From the NCBI GenBank assembly GCA_001647635.1, contig CP014761.1, forward strand, positions 1,798,001-1,862,000: a stretch of 64,000 nucleotides of DNA. Direction: 5' to 3'. The DNA is from Leifsonia xyli. Lineage in GTDB: Bacteria > Actinomycetota > Actinomycetes > Actinomycetales > Microbacteriaceae. Made by a program: the position numbers and the translations under genes. Below are positions 37,359 to 50,853 of this stretch, one piece after another (within the stretch, counting starts at the first letter, position 1; the number at the start of each line of letters is the position of its first letter). The notes below the pieces were generated by a model, which was given only the letters and a program-made list of their open reading frames with translations, had not been told where the DNA came from and made no database searches.

Positions 37359-37445
37359 TCGTCCAGCGCATCCCGGGTCGTCCGACGCAGGAATGATTCC
37401 GCCCGCGCGCGGTAGGGTGCAGGGTAGAACAGGGAGGTCTTGGGG

Positions 37446-38939
37446 TTGGACGTTCTCAGTGTGCTGCACTGGATCGGCGTGGTGGTCTGCCTGATCCTGG
37501 CACTGTCCGGCCTCATTCCGGTCATCGCCGCAGCGGCCACCTTCGTGGTCATCCCCTTCCACGCGTGGATCAACCACTACAAGAAGGCGGCGCCGTACCT
37601 CCCCCGTGTCGCCATCGTCGTCCCCGCCTGGAATGAGGGTGCGGTGATCGGCGCCTCCATCGACCGGCTGATGAAGCTCGACTACCCGCTCGAGGCGCTG
37701 CGGATCTACGTCGTCGACGACGCCAGCACCGACGACACCCCGGATGTAGTGCGCGGCCGTGCGGAGCAGTATCCCGGCAACGTGTACCTGCTGAGGCGCG
37801 AGCAGGGCGGCCAGGGCAAGGCGCACACCCTCAACCACGGCATCGAACGCATCCTCCAGGACGACTGGATGGAGGCGCTCCTCATCATGGACGCCGACGT
37901 CATCTACCTGCCGGACTCGCTCCGGCGCATGACCCGGCACCTGGCCGACCCGGACGTCGGTGCGGTCTCGGCGTACATCCGCGAGGGCAGCACCGAGCGC
38001 AACTACCTGACCAAGTTCGTGGGCGTCGAGTACGTGCTCTCGCAGCCGGCCGCCCGCCGCGCGCAGAACGTGCTCGGCGCGCAGGCGTGCCTGGCCGGCG
38101 GCGCGCAGCTGCACACCCGCGAGAACCTGCTGGCCATCGGCGGCCGCATCGACACGTCGTCGCTCGCCGAGGACACGATCACCACGTTCGAGACGCAGCT
38201 GCTGGGGAAGAAGGTCGTCTTCGAGCCGCACGCGCACGTCCTCGCCGAAGAGCCGAACCGCGTGGATGCGCTCTGGAAGCAGCGGCTGCGCTGGGCCCGC
38301 GGCAACGTGACGGTGACGGCCCGCTACTCCAAGGTGTGGTTCCGTCCGTCTCGCGTGCACCACCTGGGCGGCATCAGCTTCGGCATCGTCTGGTTCAGCC
38401 TGTGGCTGCTCCCGCTCATCATGATCACGTCGGCGATCGGTCTGGCCGGGCTGCTGTTCCTGCAGGACGAGCTGGCGACCGGTGTCTTCCGGGTGCTGTG
38501 GATCTCGGCGGCGCTCGCGTACCTGTTCGTGCTGATACTCGGCGCGCAGACCGACGGCTCGACCACCAAGCACACGCTCGGCCATGTGCTCCTGTTCCCC
38601 GGCATCATCAACATGCTCGTGATGGTGACCGCCCTGTTCCCGCCGGTGATGCTGGTCTGGCTTCCCGGCCTGTTCGGCTGGACACTGTCCGGGCCGACGC
38701 TGTTCGTGCTGACCCTCGCGATCTACATCTGGATCCCGTTCTCGATGGTCGTCGCGTGGCTCGCACGCCGCGCCGAGCGCACCCGCGCCGGCCGGTGGCT
38801 GGCCCCCGCGCTGATCTACCTCGCGGGCTACGGTTCGCTGCTCTGCGCCATCACGTTCGACTCGTACCTGAAGGAGCTGTCGGGCACAGAGGCGAAGTGG
38901 GACAAGACGGAGAAGGTCGGGCGGGTAGCGACGAGCTGA
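37446..38939 (+). CDS. Processive family 2 glycosyltransferase (BcsA/NodC/PgaC-like)
   Basis: 497 residues. Two N-terminal membrane helices, a cytosolic GT-A domain (about 55-290) with VAIVVPAWNEGAVIGASIDRL, VDDASTDDTP, LLIMDADVIYLP (DxD), AEDTITTFE and the QRLRW motif of processive synthases, then four or five C-terminal helices. This is the architecture of cellulose, chitin, hyaluronan and poly-GlcNAc synthases. The polymer is not predictable. Start: GGGAGG is eight bases from the TTG at 37446 and only two from the TTG at 37440, so 37446 is used. The -10 could be TAGGGT (37413-37418). Last intact gene before the accessory island. Confidence 0.87.
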   Translation: MDVLSVLHWIGVVVCLILALSGLIPVIAAAATFVVIPFHAWINHYKKAAPYLPRVAIVVPAWNEGAVIGASIDRLMKLDYPLEALRIYVVDDASTDDTPDVVRGRAEQYPGNVYLLRREQGGQGKAHTLNHGIERILQDDWMEALLIMDADVIYLPDSLRRMTRHLADPDVGAVSAYIREGSTERNYLTKFVGVEYVLSQPAARRAQNVLGAQACLAGGAQLHTRENLLAIGGRIDTSSLAEDTITTFETQLLGKKVVFEPHAHVLAEEPNRVDALWKQRLRWARGNVTVTARYSKVWFRPSRVHHLGGISFGIVWFSLWLLPLIMITSAIGLAGLLFLQDELATGVFRVLWISAALAYLFVLILGAQTDGSTTKHTLGHVLLFPGIINMLVMVTALFPPVMLVWLPGLFGWTLSGPTLFVLTLAIYIWIPFSMVVAWLARRAERTRAGRWLAPALIYLAGYGSLLCAITFDSYLKELSGTEAKWDKTEKVGRVATS

Positions 38940-39276: not shown

Positions 39277-39426
39277 ATGTATGTGGATGATGTGACGCTC
39301 TCGTCGGCTGGGTGCTGGGATTGGCACGCGCCGGGTTCAGACCCTTCGACGCCCTCCCTTGAATGGAACGGCGCTCCGCTGGCGCTGGCCGCAGACGAAG
39401 CGAAAGCCGACAAGGGAATCCTGTGA
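39277..39426 (+). CDS. Short hypothetical frame, possibly a gene remnant
   Basis: 49 residues from ATG 39277 (MYVDDVTLSSAGCWDWHAPG ... EAKADKGIL). No ribosome-binding site and no recognised family. The stop overlaps the GTG of the next frame (GTGA at 39423), which suggests that a real gene once ended here. It may be the tail of a longer lost gene. Confidence 0.3.
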   Translation: MYVDDVTLSSAGCWDWHAPGSDPSTPSLEWNGAPLALAADEAKADKGIL

Positions 39427-39770
39427 CGGACGCACTCATTCCGATCGAGCACCGAATGGTCATTACTGACGAAGTGGCTCGCCGATGCGCGCGGGCTGCA
39501 GGCCGCTACATCGCGTTCCAACCGCGGATTCTCGTTCCCGCTTCTCTCGCCCTTGTTGCGTTGATCCTCGTCGGCGGTGCAGATGCGATCCTTCGGGAGG
39601 ACGTAGGCATGATGCCGCTATTCCTCCTCGCGGGTATCGGAGTCGCAGCCGGTTTGCCCGCGGGGCTGTTCGCGGTCGCAGTGCGCAGTATTCGTCGTCA
39701 GATTCAGGTCGGTGATGAGTGGGGCACGGGCCATTTGGCACTCTCTCCGACCTCATACTTTCGTTCGTGA
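39423..39770 (+). CDS. YcxB-like membrane protein, probably truncated
   Basis: 115 residues. A cytosolic N-terminus (IPIEHRMVITDEVARRCARAAGRYIAF), two membrane helices (about 36-53 and 64-86) and WGTGHLALSPTSYFRS at the end. The layout (two helices, then a strand with G..LSPTSF) is that of YcxB-like proteins, which normally continue for another 60 residues; here the frame stops just where that domain starts. AAGGGA precedes the GTG. The last 18 bases overlap the convergent gene, which may mark the break point. Confidence 0.45.
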   Translation: MTDALIPIEHRMVITDEVARRCARAAGRYIAFQPRILVPASLALVALILVGGADAILREDVGMMPLFLLAGIGVAAGLPAGLFAVAVRSIRRQIQVGDEWGTGHLALSPTSYFRS

Positions 39771-40181
39771 CTCGGCCCGCTCGAGGCACCTTACGAGGCG
39801 ACGCCATTTCCACAGACGCGGGCCATTGTCGAAGACAAAATCGCGCGGTGCTCGAAGAAGTTCCAATGCCCATCGACGCGGGACCTGCCGCACTTGTCGC
39901 TGCACAATCAGTATGAGATCCGTCTCATGGGGCACGTCAAAGAGAACAATGTCATCCGGAATCCACTCGTCTCTGAAGTCAGCTTCAGAGCTGTCGGAGA
40001 ATTCGAAAGTCGCCAGCACTTCGGACTGAACCTCCTCAATCAATTCGTCGAGGGCAAGAGCAAGTCTGACCTTCTCGGTATCGCTCAGAGAGAGAAGTCT
40101 CTTCTGCCACGGAAGATCGATGTTGTCCTCGGGCCGCGCGGAACGGTTCACATGAATAACGCCGTCTTCCGTCAACCACAT
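39753..40181 (-). CDS. Hypothetical soluble protein, possible orphan immunity protein
   Basis: 142 residues, acidic N-terminal half (DTEKVRLALALDELIEEVQSEVLATFEFSDSSEADFRDEW) and basic C-terminal end (RDFVFDNGPRLWKWRRLVRCLERAESRTKV). No signal peptide or membrane helix. AAGGGG is seven bases before the ATG at 40181; a TTG at 40199 is the alternative. Codon use is less GC-biased than in the flanking chromosome. Its position behind a truncated basic C-terminal frame (40268-40432) in an RHS island suggests an immunity gene left after loss of its toxin. That is inference; no family is recognised. Confidence 0.5.
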   Translation of the reverse strand: MWLTEDGVIHVNRSARPEDNIDLPWQKRLLSLSDTEKVRLALALDELIEEVQSEVLATFEFSDSSEADFRDEWIPDDIVLFDVPHETDLILIVQRQVRQVPRRWALELLRAPRDFVFDNGPRLWKWRRLVRCLERAESRTKV

Positions 40182-40267
40182 CTCTTGTCCCCTTCGCAAC
40201 CGTCTTCGTATCTAGAACCGATAGTGATCGACTCCCAGTTTCTTCTTGGTTCCCTTTTTAAGCGTGC

Positions 40268-40449: not shown

Positions 40450-40995
40450 CTATCGATGCATCTTCGTCGACGCCGCGTTTTTGCCGAACAGGAGCTCTGC
40501 GACATTGTCCGTGTAGGCGCTCTGCGGGATCACCCAGATGCCGGCGTCATCCAACTCAGCGCTGAACTCCGACCATGAGATGTCCCTCAGTCCGTCCACT
40601 AGACGGGGAAAGAAGTGACCATCGAGTGTCGCGTACTTTCCGAGCCACTCACCGTCGTCGTCCTGATAGGCGGTGATGAGCGAGTGAGCACCAGCCAAGG
40701 CACCCCGCACGTACACACCGATGATCGGACGATCCAGATCGAGCTGTGAGCGAGGGGGCAGTGCTGGACGGGCCCGCCGGAGGGACTGTTGGGGGCTGTA
40801 TTTCTTCCTCGTTGCTTTTCCGCGGAGGAAGTCGACGACAGAAGCAGCGATCATCAGAGCCCCAGCCACGATATAGCCGATTGGATCGGCGAGATTCTGA
40901 TAACCCCGTAGGTAAGAGACGAGGATCCCGAGCGGTACACCGCAGAGGACAACCACCAACCATCGACGTACGAACCATCCCAGATAGTCCTTCAA
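40450..40995 (-). CDS. Putative immunity protein of the orphan RHS tip, membrane-anchored
   Basis: 181 residues, start TTG at 40995 overlapping the tip stop as [33 protein letters not shown] gives a first membrane helix, [19 protein letters not shown] a second, then a basic linker ([26 protein letters not shown]) and a soluble domain with [27 protein letters not shown] and [16 protein letters not shown]. It is a clear paralogue of the protein at 42581-43141 along its whole length. The pair arrangement with a toxin-like tip is typical of immunity genes. The family is not known to me. Confidence 0.75.
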
Positions 40996-42044
40996 TAGAG
41001 CCTCTTCCCAGCTTGGAGACGAGAGCCGTAGCTCCTGGCCCACGCCACCGACTGGAGCACTCCATAAATGTTGCCGCCAATCCGGAGCGGCCGTGCGGCG
41101 TTCTTCATGACCTTTCGATGCGTCGCCTTGATAGCGGCGCGCTTGGCCACGTTCGCCGGCTTTCCTCGGACGAATGCGGGTGCTCTCGCCAGCCGGACGT
41201 TCCGAACCACCTTTGAAACTACCGCGACAGCTTTGCCTGCTCCGAAAGTTGCGGCAGAGATGAGGTTCGCAGTTCCGCCCGCTACATCAGCGGTCGCCAG
41301 CTGGTAAATGCCGCGGGCAGCCGAGATTCCGGCCGAGACGGCGCCGCAGATCGTACAGCCGAACAAGGCGGCAATTCCGAGTGCGCCGGACACGTCGTCG
41401 GCGAACGCGCCCCAATCCCATCCCGTGGCCTTTCCTGTGAGGTCGTATTGGTTGATCGGGTCGTCCGGGTAGACGTAGTCGTTGGGGGTTCCGCCCTCGA
41501 CCGGGTCGACGGACAGGAACCTGCCAAGCCCGGGCACGTAGACGCGGGCACCCATCTCGATGAGGGCCACACTACCGGTGTGCTCGAACAGCTTCTGATG
41601 CTGACCCACCCACGCGTTCGACGTGTCCGTGCCCGGCTGGTTCGCCGGAACCGACGCGTCCGCAGCCGCCGTCCCGATCCGCCCGGTGACCGGGTCCACC
41701 GGCTGACCGAACGGGTCGTAGAAGAACACCGCACCGACCTGGGCGCCTGTCGGGCCGGCCGTGACCACCACATCGCCATGGACGTTCGGATACGACCACA
41801 CCCCATCCCCGGATACCGGACGAGTCAGGGTCACACCACCCGGCAGCGCCTGCGTCGTCCACACCAGGACACTGTCCGCGTTCAGCTCGGCGACCGGCGC
41901 ATCCCCGGTGCCGGAGAACACATACGTCGTCACCGACTTCTCACCCGACGTCGACACCGCCGTACGAGTCACCACCCGATCCAACGCATCCCGCACATAC
42001 GACACCGACGAACCATCCGCCGACTTTTCACTGCCCGGGCGCAT
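40992..42044 (-). CDS. Orphan RHS C-terminal cassette (RHS core end plus tip)
   Basis: 350 residues if begun at ATG 42044. From [17 protein letters not shown] on, the DNA is identical to the end of the large RHS gene for 719 bp (41308-42026), including [23 protein letters not shown]. The last 100 residues of the tip are homologous but diverged, most in the final 30 ([21 protein letters not shown]). It has no signal peptide and no N-terminal RHS body, so it cannot be secreted by itself. It is a spare tip which homologous recombination could place on the main gene. The start is uncertain; the frame is open to 42155. It may be translated by reinitiation 11 bp after the previous stop. Confidence 0.75.
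41308..42026. repeat. 719-bp direct repeat, copy 1 (orphan cassette)
   Basis: Matches 43454-44172 base for base as far as I compared by eye. It covers the last part of the RHS core and the first ~45 residues of the tip. Sequence outside it diverges at once on the right side and gradually on the left side. Confidence 0.9.
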
Positions 42045-42055
42045 TTGCGGAACGT

Positions 42056-42565
42056 CTATCCGCTGACCATGAGGAAGCATAAGAGCCCGACGATCGCAAG
42101 GACCACGAACCCGGCGAGAGCGCCCGCGATCGGGTTTTCGAGGAGCCCCAGCCACTCAGTGACGCGCGGTGCATCCTTCCCGCGATGTCGACCGGGCCGA
42201 CCTGCTGTCTCGGCTGTCTTCATCCCTTCGGCGCTGGAACCCCGGGCCGCAGTGTCTCCGTCATCCTGTTCGAGGCTCTTTCGCCTTGGTGGGCGATACA
42301 GAAGATAAACGATCCCAATCAGCGCTATGCCTACGACTACCCAGACGGTCGTGGAGCTACCCAACACTCGCGCGGGGCCCAACAGACCCAAGATGCCAGC
42401 GCCAATTCCGATGACGATCAGAGCAACAGTTCCCAGCGTCGTCGTCCATCTTCTCGGCAACTTAGAACCCTTCCACCGACGACCGATCGTAAACGCAGCT
42501 TGGAAAATGAACCGCATTTTCGCGGCGTAAGGTTTGGCGAGGTCTGAGCCATGGAGTGGCACCAT
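42056..42565 (-). CDS. Three-helix membrane protein between two RHS cassettes
   Basis: 169 residues from ATG 42565; ATG 42517 is an alternative start. Hydrophobic helices near 45-65, 73-93 and 148-168; a long charged linker between (about 95-145, [19 protein letters not shown]). It follows the first immunity gene by 15 bp and precedes the orphan cassette by 11 bp, so it is part of the same string of genes. It is not similar to the two immunity paralogues. It could be the immunity gene of a third, lost tip or a piece carried in by recombination. No family is recognised. Confidence 0.55.
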
Positions 42566-42580
42566 CCGAAGACAGCTGGA

Positions 42581-43141
42581 TCAACGGACAGGGTCGCCCG
42601 TCTTTCCTCTCCTAGGTCTCCATTTCCTATCGAAGAGCTTTTCGGCGATGACATCCGAGTACGTGCTCTGCGGAAGTACCCAGATGCCAGCATTGTCCAG
42701 CTCAGCTGCGAAATCAGCCCACGGTATATCCTTCAGCCCGTCCGCCAAGTGAGCGAACAGACGACCATCGAGCGTTGCATAACCGCCAAGCCACTCTCCG
42801 CCGGCGGCCTGGTAGACCGTGATCAATGAATGAGCCCCTGCGAGCTCGCCACGTACATACACGCCGACTATCGGGCGATCCAAGTTGAGTTGTGATCGTG
42901 GCGGCAGCGACGGACGAGCTCGATGCAGGGACTGCTCAGAATTGAACTTCTTATTCACGCGCTTTTCGCGGAGATAGTCGACAAGGGACGCCGCGATGAT
43001 GATGCCGGTGGCCAGAGGAATGCCGACGATATAGGCACCGACTGAGTACTCGTAATGCAAGGTGCCCAATATGCCAAGTGGGAACACGCACACAACAATC
43101 CATAGCCAGCGTCGCGCGAACCAGCGGAGGTACTCGCTCAA
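42581..43141 (-). CDS. Putative immunity protein of the main RHS tip, membrane-anchored
   Basis: 186 residues. The TTG start at 43141 overlaps the RHS stop as TTGA. Two N-terminal membrane helices ([35 protein letters not shown]), a basic linker with [22 protein letters not shown], and a soluble domain with [27 protein letters not shown] and [15 protein letters not shown]. Its paralogue lies at 40450-40995. Membrane anchoring suggests that the cognate tip acts at or in the membrane, or that immunity meets the toxin as it enters. The role is inferred from its position. Confidence 0.78.
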
Positions 43142-46100
43142 TACAGCCTCTTTCCTGCGGTGGCCCGGTTGCCGTAGCTGAGGCTCCACTTGATGCTTTG
43201 GTAGATGCCGTAGGCCTTTACCGCTGCCCGGACTGGCCGAGCCACGTACTTCATGACCTTTCGATGCGTGGCCTTGATAGCGGCGCGCTTGGCCACGTTC
43301 GCCGGTTTGCCGCGAGCGAAGGCGGGTGCCTTCGCCAGACGGACGTTTCGCACAACTTTAGACACCGTCGCGATCGCCTTGCCCGCTCCGAACGACGCAG
43401 CGGAAATGAGATTCTCCACGCCTCCCGCCACATCACCGGTCGCAAGCTGGTATATGCCGCGGGCAGCCGAGATTCCGGCCGAGACGGCGCCGCAGATCGT
43501 ACAGCCGAACAAGGCGGCAATTCCGAGTGCGCCGGACACGTCGTCGGCGAACGCGCCCCAATCCCATCCCGTGGCCTTTCCTGTGAGGTCGTATTGGTTG
43601 ATCGGGTCGTCCGGGTAGACGTAGTCGTTGGGGGTTCCGCCCTCGACCGGGTCGACGGACAGGAACCTGCCAAGCCCGGGCACGTAGACGCGGGCACCCA
43701 TCTCGATGAGGGCCACACTACCGGTGTGCTCGAACAGCTTCTGATGCTGACCCACCCACGCGTTCGACGTGTCCGTGCCCGGCTGGTTCGCCGGAACCGA
43801 CGCGTCCGCAGCCGCCGTCCCGATCCGCCCGGTGACCGGGTCCACCGGCTGACCGAACGGGTCGTAGAAGAACACCGCACCGACCTGGGCGCCTGTCGGG
43901 CCGGCCGTGACCACCACATCGCCATGGACGTTCGGATACGACCACACCCCATCCCCGGATACCGGACGAGTCAGGGTCACACCACCCGGCAGCGCCTGCG
44001 TCGTCCACACCAGGACACTGTCCGCGTTCAGCTCGGCGACCGGCGCATCCCCGGTGCCGGAGAACACATACGTCGTCACCGACTTCTCACCCGACGTCGA
44101 CACCGCCGTACGAGTCACCACCCGATCCAACGCATCCCGCACATACGACACCGACGAACCATCCGCCGACTTCGTCGACACATGCCGATCCGAACCATCG
44201 AAACCGAGGGTCTGATCCGCAAGGCGCGTCGTGTTCCCGTGCGCGTCGTACCCCAACGACGCACCCGGGCCCGTCAACGACAGATTCCGGCCTGTCATCG
44301 ATCCGGCATCCGGCAGAGCACCCGCAACGAGGGTGCCCGTCAACCGGTCCGCGTTGTCGTAGCAGTAGTCCACGGTCGATGTGCTCGCACCATCGAAGAC
44401 ATCGGTCAGCCGAGTCCGGTTGCTGTTCGCACCAGCCGCGGAGTCGGCGCCACATGTCGCCGCTGCATACCCATAGTCGAGCTCGTGGCGTGGAATCGAT
44501 GCATGGGTCAAACGCCCAGCGCCATCGAACCGGTACCGCGACTCGTAACGGGTATTTGCAGCCGACAACACATCCGCCAGTACACGACCCGACTGGGAGC
44601 GGGTCACCGCGTCCCGAACAGCCACCCCATCCGCGAGAGCCACATCCAACGCCGACACCCGCCCGGCAGCGTCCTTCGACAACCCCAGCTGCGTGCCGTT
44701 ACCCGCCGTGCCAGCGCCCGTCGGGAACACCACCGAGACCGGCTCTCCCTTGTCGTAGACGACCTGCGCGACGACGGCACCGTCGACTGACACTGCGGTG
44801 GGAGAGCCATCGAGGTCGAACGCAAACGTAGCTTCGGTCGCTCCGCCCTTCGGGTATGTCGTCTTCTTAGACACCACGCGGCCGAGGATGTCGAACTGGC
44901 TCGCGGTCACCGCTCCACTCACATCGGTGTAGCGGACAGTGCGACCCAGAAGGTCGACCACCGTCGTGATCCGCCCCGCCGCGTCCTCCACCCAGGAGGT
45001 CAGCGGGTCACCACCAGCAGCCCCGTTACCGGTGTACGACGTCACCACTGAACGCGCGGGGGACCCACCGAACGCCGGCATAGTCACCTTCGTCACCCGG
45101 CCTCGGCCGTCGTAGGTGGTGCAGGTCCAATCGGAGTCGCCGGTCCGGCGTGTTCCCACGACACGACCCATCAGGTCGTAGGCGGTATCAGTGGTGATCA
45201 TGACGCCGTCGGCATTCGCGGGGTCGGTGTGGCGGGCGAGCATCCCATATTGCGGCGTCGATCCAGCGACACCGCAGACCCCGGACCCCCACATCATCTG
45301 CAGCGTCTGTGTCTCTTGGTAGTAGTAGTTCGCCGTTGCGGAATTCGTCGGGATGTTACGGGCAACCGCACCGGGGAGTGCCTTGAACTGCTCCCGCAGA
45401 TAGCCGGATCCCTCCGCCTCGTAGCCACGCATGGTCGTCAGACTCAAACCACCCGGGTCCGAGGTCTCGGTCACGGGAAGCCCGTACCAAGGGGTGCTGC
45501 CATATCCGGTGCTGCTACGAACAGCGCTGACCTGGTCGGCGGACACCCCCGGCACGTTGGACGGGACGCTGTCATCCGTGGCCGTGGACGTGCTCAGCCC
45601 GTAGTCGGGCACCAGTGCACTTCCCGGGATCAACTGCCGAGCGCCGCCCGGGGGTGTCCAATACAGCCCGAAACTCGCCACCGAAGCGATATCCCAGTAC
45701 TGCACCCGAATCGGCACCGACTGCCCCGCCGTCACGGTGATCAGACCGTCCGGCGACGCGTGAGCAGCACCCGCAATCGTGTCCGACATCACCAGGATGT
45801 CGTTCAGCCACAACTGAGACGAATCGTCCGCCGTCACGGACAGCTTGTACGTACCCGCTGTCGGGAAGGTCACCATGCCGGTCATTCGGGCGGACCAGTT
45901 GTCAGCGGGGACCCCGGCCGCGGGAGCGCCCGCGCCCCAGTCCTTCGACATCGTCCCGTCCGCGGGACCGACGCCTAAGGAGTAGGCCTTCGGCCTGCCC
46001 GCGAAGGACGTGTTGTCGAAGTACTGCACACTCAACCCGCGCAGACCCTCGTCGTAGGCCGTGCGGGTGTGCGCGGGCGTGACCACGCATGCGCCCTCGG

Positions 46101-49100
46101 GCACTCCGCCCGAGCTGAAGCAGGAGGCCGGCGCAGGACCATACGAATCCGTTTGACGATGGCGCCCGTTATAAAGCCGAGTCGACTTCCGACCCTGCGG
46201 ATCGGTCGACGACACCACCTGATCGAACACATTCCACTCCGTACGGCCGGTCAAACCGGAGGCAGAGGCGTCCGTGAGCTGCTGCAGCGCATCGTTGAAC
46301 GTCACGGTTCGTGCGTGTCCGTTGGACGTCCCGTCCGTGGGCACATCCAATCCCTTCGCATCGACGAACGTGGTGTGGTCGCCGTAGGTATAGGTCTTGG
46401 CCGGCTGGGTGTCCGCGGTGGCGCCGTCCGGGGCGGGGAGGGTCACGGAGATGGCGCGTCCGGCGTCGTCGTAGCCGATCGTGGTGGCCGTGGTCGCCTC
46501 GGTTGCAAGGCCAGATCGGCTGCTGTCGGCGGTGAGCCAGTCGTTGGTCAGCGAGTCGCGGACGGTGACCAGGCGACCAGCGGCGTCATAGCTGAAAGTG
46601 GTGAGCTCGGCACCGGGGTCGAGGATTCCTGCGAGCTGCCCGTTGTCGTTGTACAGCAGTTCGGTGGTGTCACCGGATCCGGCGATGTGGCCCGGGTAGA
46701 CGATTCGGCAGATCATCCCCGCCGGAGCGGCGGCGTAGTTTTTTCGCACCGGGCACGCGGCACCGCTGAGGTCCGAGTCGGTGGCGCTGAGCCCGAGGGA
46801 CGCGGCTGAGTCCCCGGAGTAGGCGAACTTGACCTCGCGCCCGTAGCCGCCGCCGGTCAAGGCGGAAAGCGGGTCGCTGATCCGATCGAGTTGGGCTGTT
46901 CCGGCTCTCCAGCCCGCCATCGGTACGGAGGGCTTCCGGGTGTCCTCTATCGCGGTGATCGACTTCAGCACCCCGGTCGCGTCGAACACATAGGCGGTGC
47001 CGGATTCGTCGGTGAGGGTGACGTTCCCGGACTTGTCCAGGGCGAGGACACCGCTCTCCCCGGCCGGGGCTGTGTAGCCGGGCGCGTTGACGCCTCCGTT
47101 CACGGGGCTGGCGTTCTTCGTATAGGTGTGCACGCCTCCCGTGGAGTCGGTGAGGATGACCGCGGACTCGGTGATCTGCGCCCGAAGGTATCCATCTACT
47201 CCCGTCAGCGCCGTGGATGACGCCCATCCGCCCGGCAGAACCGGCGCCGACGTCGTGAACCAGTCCGGTGGGACGATGAACTCCTTGCCCGACGAGGCGT
47301 CGCGGACCCAGAGGTCGAGCTTGGACGCCCCGGTCGCTTCGAAGTACTCGACCGTGATGGGTGTCGCGCCGGCCTTCATGGCGGTGGCGGGCATCCAGTC
47401 GATGTGGTCGGCTTTCGAGGTGGACCACAGGTCGCCGATCAGCTGACCATTGAGCTTGAGGCGTGCGCCGTCGTCCCGCGCGAAGCCGAACGTGTAGGTG
47501 CCCGCCTTGGGCGGCGTGATGAAGCCCGTCCACTGCGCTGTGTAGTAGTCCGCCGGGATCGCCGGGCCGGGCGACTCCGTCGGCCAGCTGAACGAGACGG
47601 CGGTGTCGGTACGGACGAGCTGCGGAGTGCGACCACCGAAGGTGAACGCGGCGCCTGTACCCGGCGCAGGCGTGACGTCGAAATACCGTCCGATCAGCCC
47701 GCGGTTGGACTGCTGCTGGGAGTTGTAGGCGAACGAGAGGCCCATCTCACCGCCGAGCGTTCTCACCGTCGGGGATGAGAACGAGAGGTGCGCGTTGCCG
47801 TTCGCCAGATTCACGGTCAACGGCCCGGCGGTGTCCGTCGGCGCCGGACCGGCATCGCCGATCCGGAGGTTCACCGTGAACGGCTTGGCCCAGAACGGAA
47901 GGTACGTCGCCGACCCGTCCTTGATGGAGACGCCCCAGCTGTACCTGCCGCCGTCTTGGAGCGTGCCCGCCGGGGGCGTCCACGTGGTGCTCGTCGTCCA
48001 TCCTGAGGAGACGATCTGTCCGCTGACGGCGTCCCCGCCCGTCGCCACCTGGAACTGGTACTGGGTGGCCCCGGACTGCGACGCGATCGGGTCGACCGAG
48101 AACGTCGGGGTGACGGAGGTGATCACCTGATCCGCGACCGGCGACGCGGTGTCCGGATTCGGAGTCGGCGGCGGCGTCGTCGTGAACTTCCACGTCGCAC
48201 TCTCACGAAGCGTCGAGGTGCCGAGCCACCCGTCGTAGCCGTCCTTCACCTGAGTCTTCCAGTAGTAGGTCTTTCCACCCTGGAGGGCGGTCTGCGGGAC
48301 CTTGACGCTGGGCTGGCTCGTCCATCCGGAGGACCAAGCGGTGCCGACGGAAGGGTTGGGGTTCTCCGAGATCACGAAGTTGTAGATCAGCCCCGTTCCC
48401 CCGGGATCGGTGGCACCCTGCACAGCGAGGGTGGGGTTGATGGACGACGTGCCGCCGTTCGCCGGAGCAGGGGCGGCGAGCGTTCCGGCTGTCGGGAAGT
48501 CCTTGTACGTGATGTACATCGAGGTCTCGAGACGTTTGTATGCGTAGACGCCGGGTCGTTCGTCCCCCGTCACCTGGAGGTAATTGCCGGCAGACCTCGC
48601 ATTGACCCAGGCGGCGATCCTGTTCTCCAGGGGCGAGTCCTGAGCGAATCCGTCCGCCGCCACGGGGAAGAGCGACAGCCGGTCCCCCGAGCCGTTGTAC
48701 GAGAACGCGTTCGCGTAGTTGACGGCCCCGGGGACGGCGTTCGTCGTCCCTTCGCCGGCCACGACGCCGTAGATGAAGGCGTCCGTGATCTGCTTTCCGA
48801 AATACCCCTCGTAGCTGTAATGGGTGACGGTGCGCCAATACGTGTCTCCGTTGGCGCGCGCATTGCCTACAAGGGTGCCGGTGTTGGTGCGGGAGGCGCC
48901 GTCAGAGCGAAACGCATGCACGTCCTGGTTGTCGGACCACACGGACGGGTCGACGAACACAGGGTAGGTGCGCTTCGAATCGTTCAGCCACGAGCGGTCC
49001 GCGCGAAGAGTGAGTTTCCACTTCGATCCGTCCCGCTTGACCACCGCGTGGACGGGATGGTCGTCCGGCTCCTTCACCCCCTCCTTTCCCGAGGAATCCC

Positions 49101-49983
49101 ACATCCGGGGCGCGGGAACCACGAACACGATGTGCCCTGAGGAATTCGTGAACACGACATCACCCGTGACCTCGTCCTTGCTCAGATTCAGCTCAGGTGC
49201 ATCCACTGTCCAGGTCCACGAGGTTCTGCCCTTCGCTCCGGGGGCCTTGCTCAACTTCAGCGTCTCTTTGACGCCGGCCTTGCTCACCGCGTATTCGGCG
49301 TCGGTGTCATCGAGGACGTCTCCATACGAGACGCGGGACCTGTCCTTGGCCGAGGCCACCGGATTGAGGTTCCGAACGAGCCGCGAATGGCGTGAGCCGA
49401 TCAGGCTGAAATGGACGGTGTAGCCGTCTTTGGAGACCGAAAGCGCGTCGCTCGAATTCGCGAACTCTGCGAACTCGGGATGAAGCGGATGGTCCTCGAC
49501 CGCGCCGCCGCCCAGGCCGACCGGTGAAAGCCACCCGGTGCCGTCGACCGCCGTTTCGATCTGCACGTAACGCCCCTCGCCGTCGAGGACGTTCAATGGA
49601 TCGGGCGAGATCTGCTGCGTCTTCGTGCCGTCGGGATTCTTCCAGGTCGTCGACTTTTCGTCTCTCCTCTCCACCGTCGCACCATCGGCCGGACCTTCGT
49701 GACCGGATGTTCGCTTCGGGAACGCGGACGGACGACGGAGATCCGGCTTCTCGAAATCGGTCACAGGCTCCGGGCGGGGAGCCGACTCGAAGTCCCCCGA
49801 TGGGATCGATCCGCCATCGTTCGCCGGGGCTGCGGACGTCTGGGCAGGGAGCGAGAGCACGTCGGCGCTTGCGGCCGGGGTCGCATCAGCGGCGGAGGCC
49901 GGCTGGAGATCACCGATGACCAAGGCTGCGGCGGTGACGATGCCGACGATGGTGAGAGCGCGGAAAGAGTGAGACACGATCAT
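43138..49983 (-). CDS. Large secreted RHS/YD-repeat protein with PA14 domains and C-terminal tip (putative polymorphic toxin)
   Basis: 2281 residues. Signal peptide 1-31 ([13 protein letters not shown]). About 340-520: DNRLRE-like wall-associated domain ([28 protein letters not shown]). About 520-720: two fibronectin-like repeats ([16 protein letters not shown]). PA14 domain one about 760-905 ([13 protein letters not shown]) and two about 1312-1460 ([14 protein letters not shown]). YD/RHS repeats fill the rest, ending with [23 protein letters not shown] (about 2100-2125). The last ~149 residues are a variable tip with two long hydrophobic stretches, a CTIC motif and a basic end. This is the WapA-like Gram-positive RHS layout: the shell is exported and the tip acts on neighbour cells. 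The following gene overlaps as TTGA. Possible promoter: TTGTGG-18-TTTATG upstream on the minus strand, weak. Confidence 0.9.
43454..44172. repeat. 719-bp direct repeat, copy 2 (main RHS gene)
   Basis: Partner of 41308-42026, same orientation, 2146 bp apart. It encodes residues about 1938-2177 of the RHS protein. Recombination between the copies would delete the first immunity gene and the three-helix gene and put the orphan tip on the main protein. Confidence 0.9.
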
Positions 49984-50151
49984 TGAAAATATCTGGACAT
50001 GTGAGCATTGACATAAAGTGCTCTGTCCTCAATGTCCACAATTTCGCAGAGAGGTCATACCGCGGGACCACATCTGACGGATGACCCCGCAGCCCGAGCA
50101 TGCCCCTCCCGGCCGACGCGTGCCCCGGCCCCGCCCAGCCACGCTGGGAGC

Positions 50152-50853
50152 ATGACCTCAGCACCTCCACCGGCCCTCGCGGCCTCCGGCCTCACCAAGT
50201 CCTACGGCTCCTCGGTCGCGCTCGCGGGCGTCGACTTCCGGGTCGACCCGGGCGAATCCGTCGCGATCATGGGGGCGTCCGGATCGGGCAAGACGACGCT
50301 GCTCCACTGCCTGGCGGGCATCGTCGCGCCCGATACCGGCACGGTCCTGCTCACGACGGCGGGCGGGGCGGTCGACGTCACACGGCTCGGGGAGGCCGGG
50401 CGGTCGCGGCTGCGGCGGGAGGAGTTCGGGTTCGTGTTCCAGCAGGGGCTGCTGCTGCCCGAGCTGACGGCGGTCGAGAACGTCGCCCTGCCCCTCATGC
50501 TGACGGGCGCCGACCGGCGGGCGGCCGAGCAGACGGCGGGGATGTGGCTGGCCGCGCTCGGGCTCGCCGGGTTCGAGGCACGGCGCATCGGGGAACTGTC
50601 CGGCGGGCAGGCGCAACGGGTCGCCATCGCCCGCGCGCAGACGACCGGAGCGTCGGTGGTGTTCGCCGACGAACCGACGGGAGCGCTCGACTCGGCCACC
50701 TCGGCGGAGGTGATGGATGCGCTCATCCGGTCGACCACCGGACGCGGGCGCTCGCTCGTCGTCGTCACGCACGACGAGACCGTCGCCGCCCGCTGCGCGC
50801 GGGTCGTCCGGCTGGCCGACGGTCGCATCGTGGACGAGGTGGCGACGCGATGA
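50152..50853 (+). CDS. ABC transporter ATP-binding protein (MacB/LolD type)
   Basis: 233 residues. Walker A GASGSGKTT, Q-loop FVFQQGLLLPELTAVENVALPL, signature LSGGQAQRVAIARA, Walker B VVFADEPTGALD and the H-loop VVTHDE are complete. This class powers FtsX/MacB-like exporters. The ATG at 50152 was chosen over upstream codons because it begins directly before the conserved part; a -10-like CACGCT lies six bases ahead. Coupled by ATGA to the permease. Confidence 0.92.
   Translation: MTSAPPPALAASGLTKSYGSSVALAGVDFRVDPGESVAIMGASGSGKTTLLHCLAGIVAPDTGTVLLTTAGGAVDVTRLGEAGRSRLRREEFGFVFQQGLLLPELTAVENVALPLMLTGADRRAAEQTAGMWLAALGLAGFEARRIGELSGGQAQRVAIARAQTTGASVVFADEPTGALDSATSAEVMDALIRSTTGRGRSLVVVTHDETVAARCARVVRLADGRIVDEVATR

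Follow-up and report, generated by a model that had tools for sequence, protein, structure and literature searches.

The window analysed here is a stretch of 64,000 nucleotides from Leifsonia xyli (assembly GCA_001647635.1, contig CP014761.1, positions 1,798,001 to 1,862,000 of the forward strand). Positions 40450-49983 of the window hold what we conclude, from the sequence, is a real and intact polymorphic toxin locus of the RHS/WapA type. We lean slightly toward the reading that this locus encodes a Sec-exported surface toxin whose C-terminal tip acts against the cytoplasmic membrane of bacterial competitors. The tip belongs to a family that has no name in the libraries searched, and its relatives recur in other genera beside membrane-type proteins of at least two kinds. 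We regard these membrane neighbours as better evidence for a membrane target than the hydrophobic half of the tip with its CTIC motif.

A toxin gene with an unnamed tip and a membrane-type partner

The toxin gene (43138..49983, minus strand) encodes a protein of 2281 residues with an N-terminus that, judged by eye, resembles a signal peptide, two PA14 stretches (E value 1.5e-43), four stretches of RHS/YD repeats (E 7e-17; PF05593 above cut-off) and the RHS core end at residues 2085-2135 (TIGR03696, E 6.7e-10, above its cut-off). An original prediction made on this DNA had named each of these parts, and they were recovered; the cell-wall-binding region that it also listed had no match in Pfam or NCBIfam. 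Tip 1 begins after the motif DLTG and is carried on the intact 2281-residue frame. Its 146 residues (2136-2281; 43138..43578 on the minus strand, stop codon included) agree with the predicted length of about 149, and in most of a low-confidence model they are all-alpha (predicted local distance difference test score, pLDDT, 61; predicted template modelling score, pTM, 0.40).

Directly after the tip lies immunity gene 1 (42581..43141, minus strand), which encodes 186 amino acids and whose TTG start overlaps the stop codon of tip 1 (TTGA). Gene order, this overlap and the conservation of the pair described below bear out the earlier assignment to the RHS/WapA toxin-immunity pairs. The immunity protein has two hydrophobic windows of membrane type, and its model (pLDDT 65, pTM 0.44) shows two long helices at residues 2-29 and 34-62, predicted to be transmembrane, and then an alpha/beta part. 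It had been described as a small two-helix protein, which holds for its position, its size and the two predicted helices and falls short of the model, in which it is more than two helices and has the alpha/beta part too. Basic residues flank the helical hairpin, by eye, and the alpha/beta part is probably cytosolic.

Neither protein had been recognised in the original prediction, and the profile and structure searches left them without a family. For tip and partner there was no family in Pfam, NCBIfam or PADLOC, and the matches among Protein Data Bank (PDB) sequences were unconvincing (best E 0.023 and 0.63). Foldseek and VIA searches with the weak models assigned no fold or family to tip or immunity protein. 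Known enzyme toxin domains in particular were not matched by the tip in Pfam, NCBIfam, PDB or Foldseek: no enzyme or toxin family exceeded the Pfam cut-off in 7/7 tips of the family, and none was found in NCBIfam within tips 1 and 2.

Positions 40450-49983 also hold a second cassette that had gone unmentioned before, namely an orphan core end with a tip (40992-42026) and its own immunity gene, together with a membrane protein of 169 amino acids. The core end and the start of the tip in this cassette form an exact copy, 719 base pairs long (41308..42026, minus strand), of positions 43454-44172, which we take to be the recombination tract of the orphan cassette; past this tract the two copies diverge. 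Tip 2 (40992..41432, minus strand) is 83% identical to tip 1 and is without export parts. Immunity gene 2 (40450..40995, minus strand; 181 amino acids) is a paralogue of immunity gene 1, with 58% identity in the protein and the same TTGA overlap with its tip.

Membrane neighbours of the tip family in other genera

Relatives of the tip and of its immunity protein lie side by side in Cryobacterium, in Galbitalea and in an actinobacterial metagenome-assembled genome (MAG). In Blastococcus, in a Streptosporangiaceae MAG and in a genome of the same order, the membrane neighbour beside the tip relative is of another kind. Stop and start codons overlapped in 7/7 of the pairs looked at, with start codons chosen by hand. 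The recurrence of adjacent, overlapping tip and immunity relatives in other genera is more than chance. The family is rare, with matches in 8/299 genomes of its own bacterial family, 5/396 of the order and 8/394 of the class, counts that include the present genome each time and some chance matches. Profile searches added further related tips mainly in one more bacterial family (10/190 genomes of its order, and 1/35 of another order). Matches at L006, L007, L009, L071 and L013/L020 were discarded as chance, being in the wrong frame or having no RHS context that could be seen, and L008 was discarded as chance by its stops and short frame.

As the neighbour of a tip we took a same-strand frame starting between -25 and +200 nucleotides from the stop; where several frames fitted, the likely gene was picked by eye. 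Scored in this way, 15/16 pairs of the tip family have a membrane-type neighbour, and the sole exception is L069, to which we return below. Neighbours with two helices and a domain are those of the two cassettes in the window and of L028, L029 and L032, those with three or more helices belong to L030, L031 and L024, and membrane neighbours also accompany L066, L067, L068, L070, L073, L078 and L080. Hydrophobic windows predicted from the sequences number at least two in 6/6 immunity proteins of type A5 and at least three in 3/3 of type A6. The two types have no detectable relation to each other (hhalign probability 0.1%, from few sequences), and no known family matched them in Pfam, NCBIfam or PADLOC scans. 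Immunity to channel-forming effectors is almost always conferred by a polytopic membrane protein (PMC12744356), and the immunity protein of a contact-dependent inhibition (CDI) ionophore is predicted to be membrane-localised (PMC11630599).

The tip of L024 was counted among the 16 pairs though it is truncated at a contig end and lacks the hydrophobic half. The pairs omitted were L025, which has a stop within the tip, L026, in which no core was seen, L081-L084, from which no usable pair of tip and neighbour was extracted, and L033. At this last locus, in Microbacterium stercoris, an intact two-helix membrane immunity gene (L033:6107-6622) stands beside a decayed tip of the tip 1 family. Two further loci are of note for their structure. 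In the actinobacterial MAG two core-end cassettes lie in tandem (L017/L032), the other of them with a different cysteine-containing tip and a hydrophobic neighbour. In Blastococcus saxobsidens (L030:3700-3900) the RHS frame stops with the core end still incomplete, and the tip is read in a different frame, as a broken gene or an assembly error would produce.

The diversity of these neighbours also bears on a different explanation, by which the tip would inhibit one membrane protein or one step of envelope synthesis, the membrane itself would not become leaky, and the immunity protein would shield the protein under attack. Membrane neighbours of different types would be in keeping with this, as would the lack of an enzyme family match for the tip. 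For an Rhs toxin of Listeria with a membrane-anchored immunity protein, moreover, the authors suspect a site of action in the cell envelope (PMC10327511). However, no finding points to a candidate target, and the immunity types match no known family. We consider inhibition of a single target improbable.

The hydrophobic module and the basic end

Tip 1 can be divided into a hydrophobic CxxC module in its first half (43339..43572, minus strand) and a variable basic C-terminal end (43141..43323, minus strand; net charge +15), the latter predicted to be the effector and recognition part. The module is common to other RHS tips and has profile matches in other genera; we followed it in an alignment of seven tips (A4) and in one that adds more distant tip rows (A7). 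The first half is the better conserved, with a mean pairwise identity of 47% (residues 10-80) versus 23% in the second half (six sequences, tip 2 omitted). Invariant residues of the seven A4 tips include the two cysteines of CxxC and small residues at positions 26, 30, 34, 38, 42 and 46. In tip 1 this stripe of small residues at every fourth position (A, G, C, S, S, G) occupies 43456..43518 on the minus strand and holds the CTIC motif at 43492-43503. The run of six small residues in one every-fourth register has a p value of 0.007-0.009, or 0.04 over steps 3-7, for a register that was picked post hoc. When the distant A7 rows are added, the two cysteines and one glycine are still invariant and the full stripe is not. 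The module contains a 19-residue window with a hydropathy of 1.9-2.2 in 7/7 tips.

In the mechanism that we favour, a Sec-exported RHS shell at the cell surface would carry the tip, the tip would be released, and its hydrophobic CxxC module would insert into the membrane of the target cell. Module and basic, fast-evolving end may then jointly assemble into an ion conductor or put the membrane out of action in some other way, ion leakage with depolarisation being the simplest possibility. A pore would need the module, because the C-terminal end alone shows no membrane-like window in 7/7 tips (highest 19-residue hydropathy 0.77). Immunity protein 1, as a two-helix membrane protein, would recognise the variable end in or at the membrane, and the producer would thereby be protected.

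What the hydrophobic half signifies is best judged from the tip of genome G882, L069. It has the same hydrophobic module (E 5.5e-10 with a profile built without L069), its end shares 58% identity over 33 residues with that of tip L037 from a congener, and its neighbour is soluble and acidic with a net charge of -15. In L037 the same end stands behind a different hydrophobic part, and the neighbour is again soluble and acidic. The end shared by these two tips reads CxFRDxC..DHxHVD..TRHYxW and has no Pfam or NCBIfam match above cut-off; with its cysteine, histidine and aspartate motifs it looks enzymatic. Hydrophobic parts and ends are thus exchangeable units, to judge from this one hybrid. Since L069, the one scored tip with a soluble acidic neighbour, also has an end of another type, the type of neighbour appears to follow the tip end. 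Since the module also precedes this enzyme-like end, the hydrophobic CTIC half is not diagnostic of a membrane target. The original prediction had argued for a membrane target from the hydrophobic stretches and CTIC motif of the tip and from the membrane-bound immunity protein. The first argument fails on L069, the second is strengthened by the count of membrane neighbours, and the membrane remains the favoured target.

Several points weigh against an attack on the membrane. The module, common as it is to an enzyme-like tip, may serve for entry alone. The C-terminal end has the low hydropathy given above and is basic in the tips (+8 to +15), a charge that would also fit a toxin that binds nucleic acids. 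A strict glycine zipper, (G/A/S)xxxGxxxG or GxxxGxxx(G/S/T), occurs in the hydrophobic stretch of 1/7 tips (L028), which is not above the level of shuffled sequences, and the model of tip 1 is weak. The 16 scored pairs are not independent, with L067 and L078 alike, L070 and L073 alike, and L066 and L073 in one genome. A similar restraint applies to the divergence between the two cassettes. The last 38 residues of tips 1 and 2 are identical at 21/38 positions versus 54/62 at residues 49-110 (Fisher p 0.0007), and the membrane hairpins of immunity proteins 1 and 2 are identical at 29/62 positions versus 76/108 elsewhere (p 0.003). This suggests that the last part of the tip is recognised at the membrane. 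The contrast goes no further than suggestion, because sequence change is often quicker in membrane helices than in soluble domains and because it comes from one pair of paralogues.

The main rival to membrane attack holds that the CxxC half is an entry module only, that the small basic end acts in the cytoplasm, for example on nucleic acids or the ribosome, and that the membrane immunity protein blocks entry. It would accommodate the presence of the module in L069 next to a soluble neighbour as well as the charge and hydropathy of the end, and separable entry and toxin domains are known from CdiA toxins (PMC11630599). It is less easily squared with the distribution of neighbours: tips of the genus that look enzymatic by eye (L036, L037 and L043) have soluble acidic neighbours, whereas the tip 1 family has membrane ones in 15/16 pairs. 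Of these three tips, L037 was scanned and matched no family. On balance we think this rival unlikely, while giving it serious weight.

Tip exchange, probable leftover immunity genes and known systems

On the membrane-attack reading, recombination at the core end would exchange one tip for another, and the displaced pair of tip 2 and immunity 2, along with probable leftover immunity genes, would be retained as a reserve that also protects against kin. Exchange of tips is seen in the congener G686: its RHS protein has 73% identity across residues 7-2136, as far as the core end, and carries another tip thereafter. In our window the RHS locus is flanked by a glycosyltransferase family 2 gene (37440..38939, plus strand) and by an ABC-transporter ATPase gene, named by eye from its sequence (50032..50853, plus strand). 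The homologues of these two genes in G686 are adjacent with no RHS gene between them (L086:2-802 and 918-1631), with the RHS gene some 8 kb off (L086:9221-15604). We conclude from this arrangement that the RHS element has moved or was inserted at its present site.

Core-end relatives were found in 14/28 genomes of the genus, the present one included. Of 30 loci (3 in the present genome) 19 were processed and 14 gave readable tips, L038, L039, L040, L052 and L058 being unparsed. By eye none of these 14 other tips belongs to the tip 1 family. Their neighbours have predicted membrane helices in 8/14 cases and are soluble in 6/14, so the earlier suggestion that a membrane-directed tip would be a less common effector class is not borne out within the genus. 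Outside the window, the present genome has two more weak RHS-core-like matches in open frames (G000:C1:2747977-2751533), possibly a second RHS locus.

Two more genes of the region, which the original prediction had passed over, resemble neighbours of other tips. The 169-amino-acid membrane protein encoded between the cassettes (42056..42565, minus strand) resembles the neighbour of L041, a tip of a different type from a congener (32% over 100 amino acids, E 1e-8), in a single comparison that calls for caution because the protein is hydrophobic. A protein of 148 amino acids encoded beyond immunity gene 2 (39753..40199, minus strand) resembles the soluble neighbour of tip L037 (29% over 112 amino acids, E 2e-11, again a single comparison). 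Both are probably orphan immunity genes, left over from earlier tips. The region can therefore be read as an archive of the tips it once had, comprising a displaced cassette and two immunity genes that were probably left behind. Both orphan cassettes and polyimmunity loci are familiar from earlier work (PMC12704120, PMC3482391). Beside these genes, a 135-amino-acid frame with hydrophobic segments (39363-39770, plus strand) has no Pfam or NCBIfam family above cut-off; it could be a further membrane protein of the island, or chance.

An orphan cassette without an export part, and relatives such as L033 with decayed tips, might be taken as signs that the locus is a remnant that no longer functions, with inert or decayed tips. 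Yet tip 1 stands on an intact frame, overlapping pairs have been kept in several genera, and codons 50-100 of tips 1 and 2 differ by 0.10 non-synonymous substitutions per site (dN) versus 1.26 synonymous ones (dS). We regard a remnant as very improbable.

Among described systems, WapA-CT1 of Streptococcus suis (PMC12704120) also has a YD shell, a C-terminal toxin that can be exchanged and lies next to its immunity gene, and, further downstream, a truncated orphan copy carrying a second tip; its signal peptide has a likely counterpart in the signal-peptide-like start seen here. By comparison, the present tip and immunity protein match no named family, and the present immunity protein is predicted to be membrane-bound. 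The nearest Gram-positive precedent that we found, likened by description, is LrhA with LrhI of Listeria (PMC10327511), a Gram-positive Rhs toxin followed by a family-less immunity protein with a predicted membrane segment, with orphan immunity copies and the suspected envelope target mentioned above. LrhA is Type VII secreted, and its partner has one membrane segment and a globular part predicted outside, whereas the present locus has a signal-peptide-like start, two predicted membrane helices and an alpha/beta part probably inside.

Tse5 of Pseudomonas aeruginosa is an Rhs pore-forming effector with a membrane-bound immunity protein, Tsi5 (PMC10684867, PMC9637101; described in PMC12744356, PMC11630599). 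By description it shares with our reading an Rhs shell with a membrane-active tip and membrane-bound immunity, and differs in its delivery, which is through a Gram-negative type VI system. The CDI ionophore toxins (PMC11630599) are helical polymorphic toxins with a two-part toxin region and membrane-localised polymorphic immunity. In these it is the N-terminal entry part that varies, and a five-helix bundle with a glycine zipper is predicted for the C-terminal ionophore, whereas here the hydrophobic first half is conserved and a strict zipper is not. The LXG toxins TelE, EsxX and TspA of firmicutes (PMC12744356) are Gram-positive antibacterial proteins with a hydrophobic small-residue segment and membrane immunity, to which EsxX adds a second, soluble immunity pair; they differ in being Type VII secreted LXG proteins rather than RHS proteins, and in their glycine zippers. 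Tox-WTIP, a pore-forming domain of the 2012 polymorphic-toxin survey (PMC3482391), likewise has two membrane-spanning helices and is found with RHS repeats, but it is listed from proteobacteria, and its Wx[ST]IP motif is absent from 7/7 tips.

No membrane-acting WapA/RHS tip of actinobacteria was among the titles listed in the open-licence literature. In the literature found, the membrane-acting Rhs effector is Tse5, type VI delivered and Gram-negative, and the Gram-positive membrane toxins, namely the LXG proteins and Listeria LrhA, are type VII secreted. A signal-peptide RHS protein with a membrane-type tip, if true, would extend membrane toxins to the WapA kind. We propose tentatively, at somewhat less than even confidence, that actinobacterial RHS proteins possess an undescribed, exchangeable membrane-insertion module, with its invariant CxxC in a stripe of small residues, joined to varied ends, and that the basic ends constitute a new membrane-disabling class of WapA effectors neutralised by at least two unrelated families of membrane immunity proteins. 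The loci amount to a natural experiment, with the same hydrophobic module joined to two kinds of toxin end and immunity and with a pair of paralogous cassettes lying next to each other in a single genome. Such a set lets the role of the hydrophobic segment, in entry or in killing, and the site of immunity action be probed, and the probable leftover immunity genes can be read as a record of past tips.

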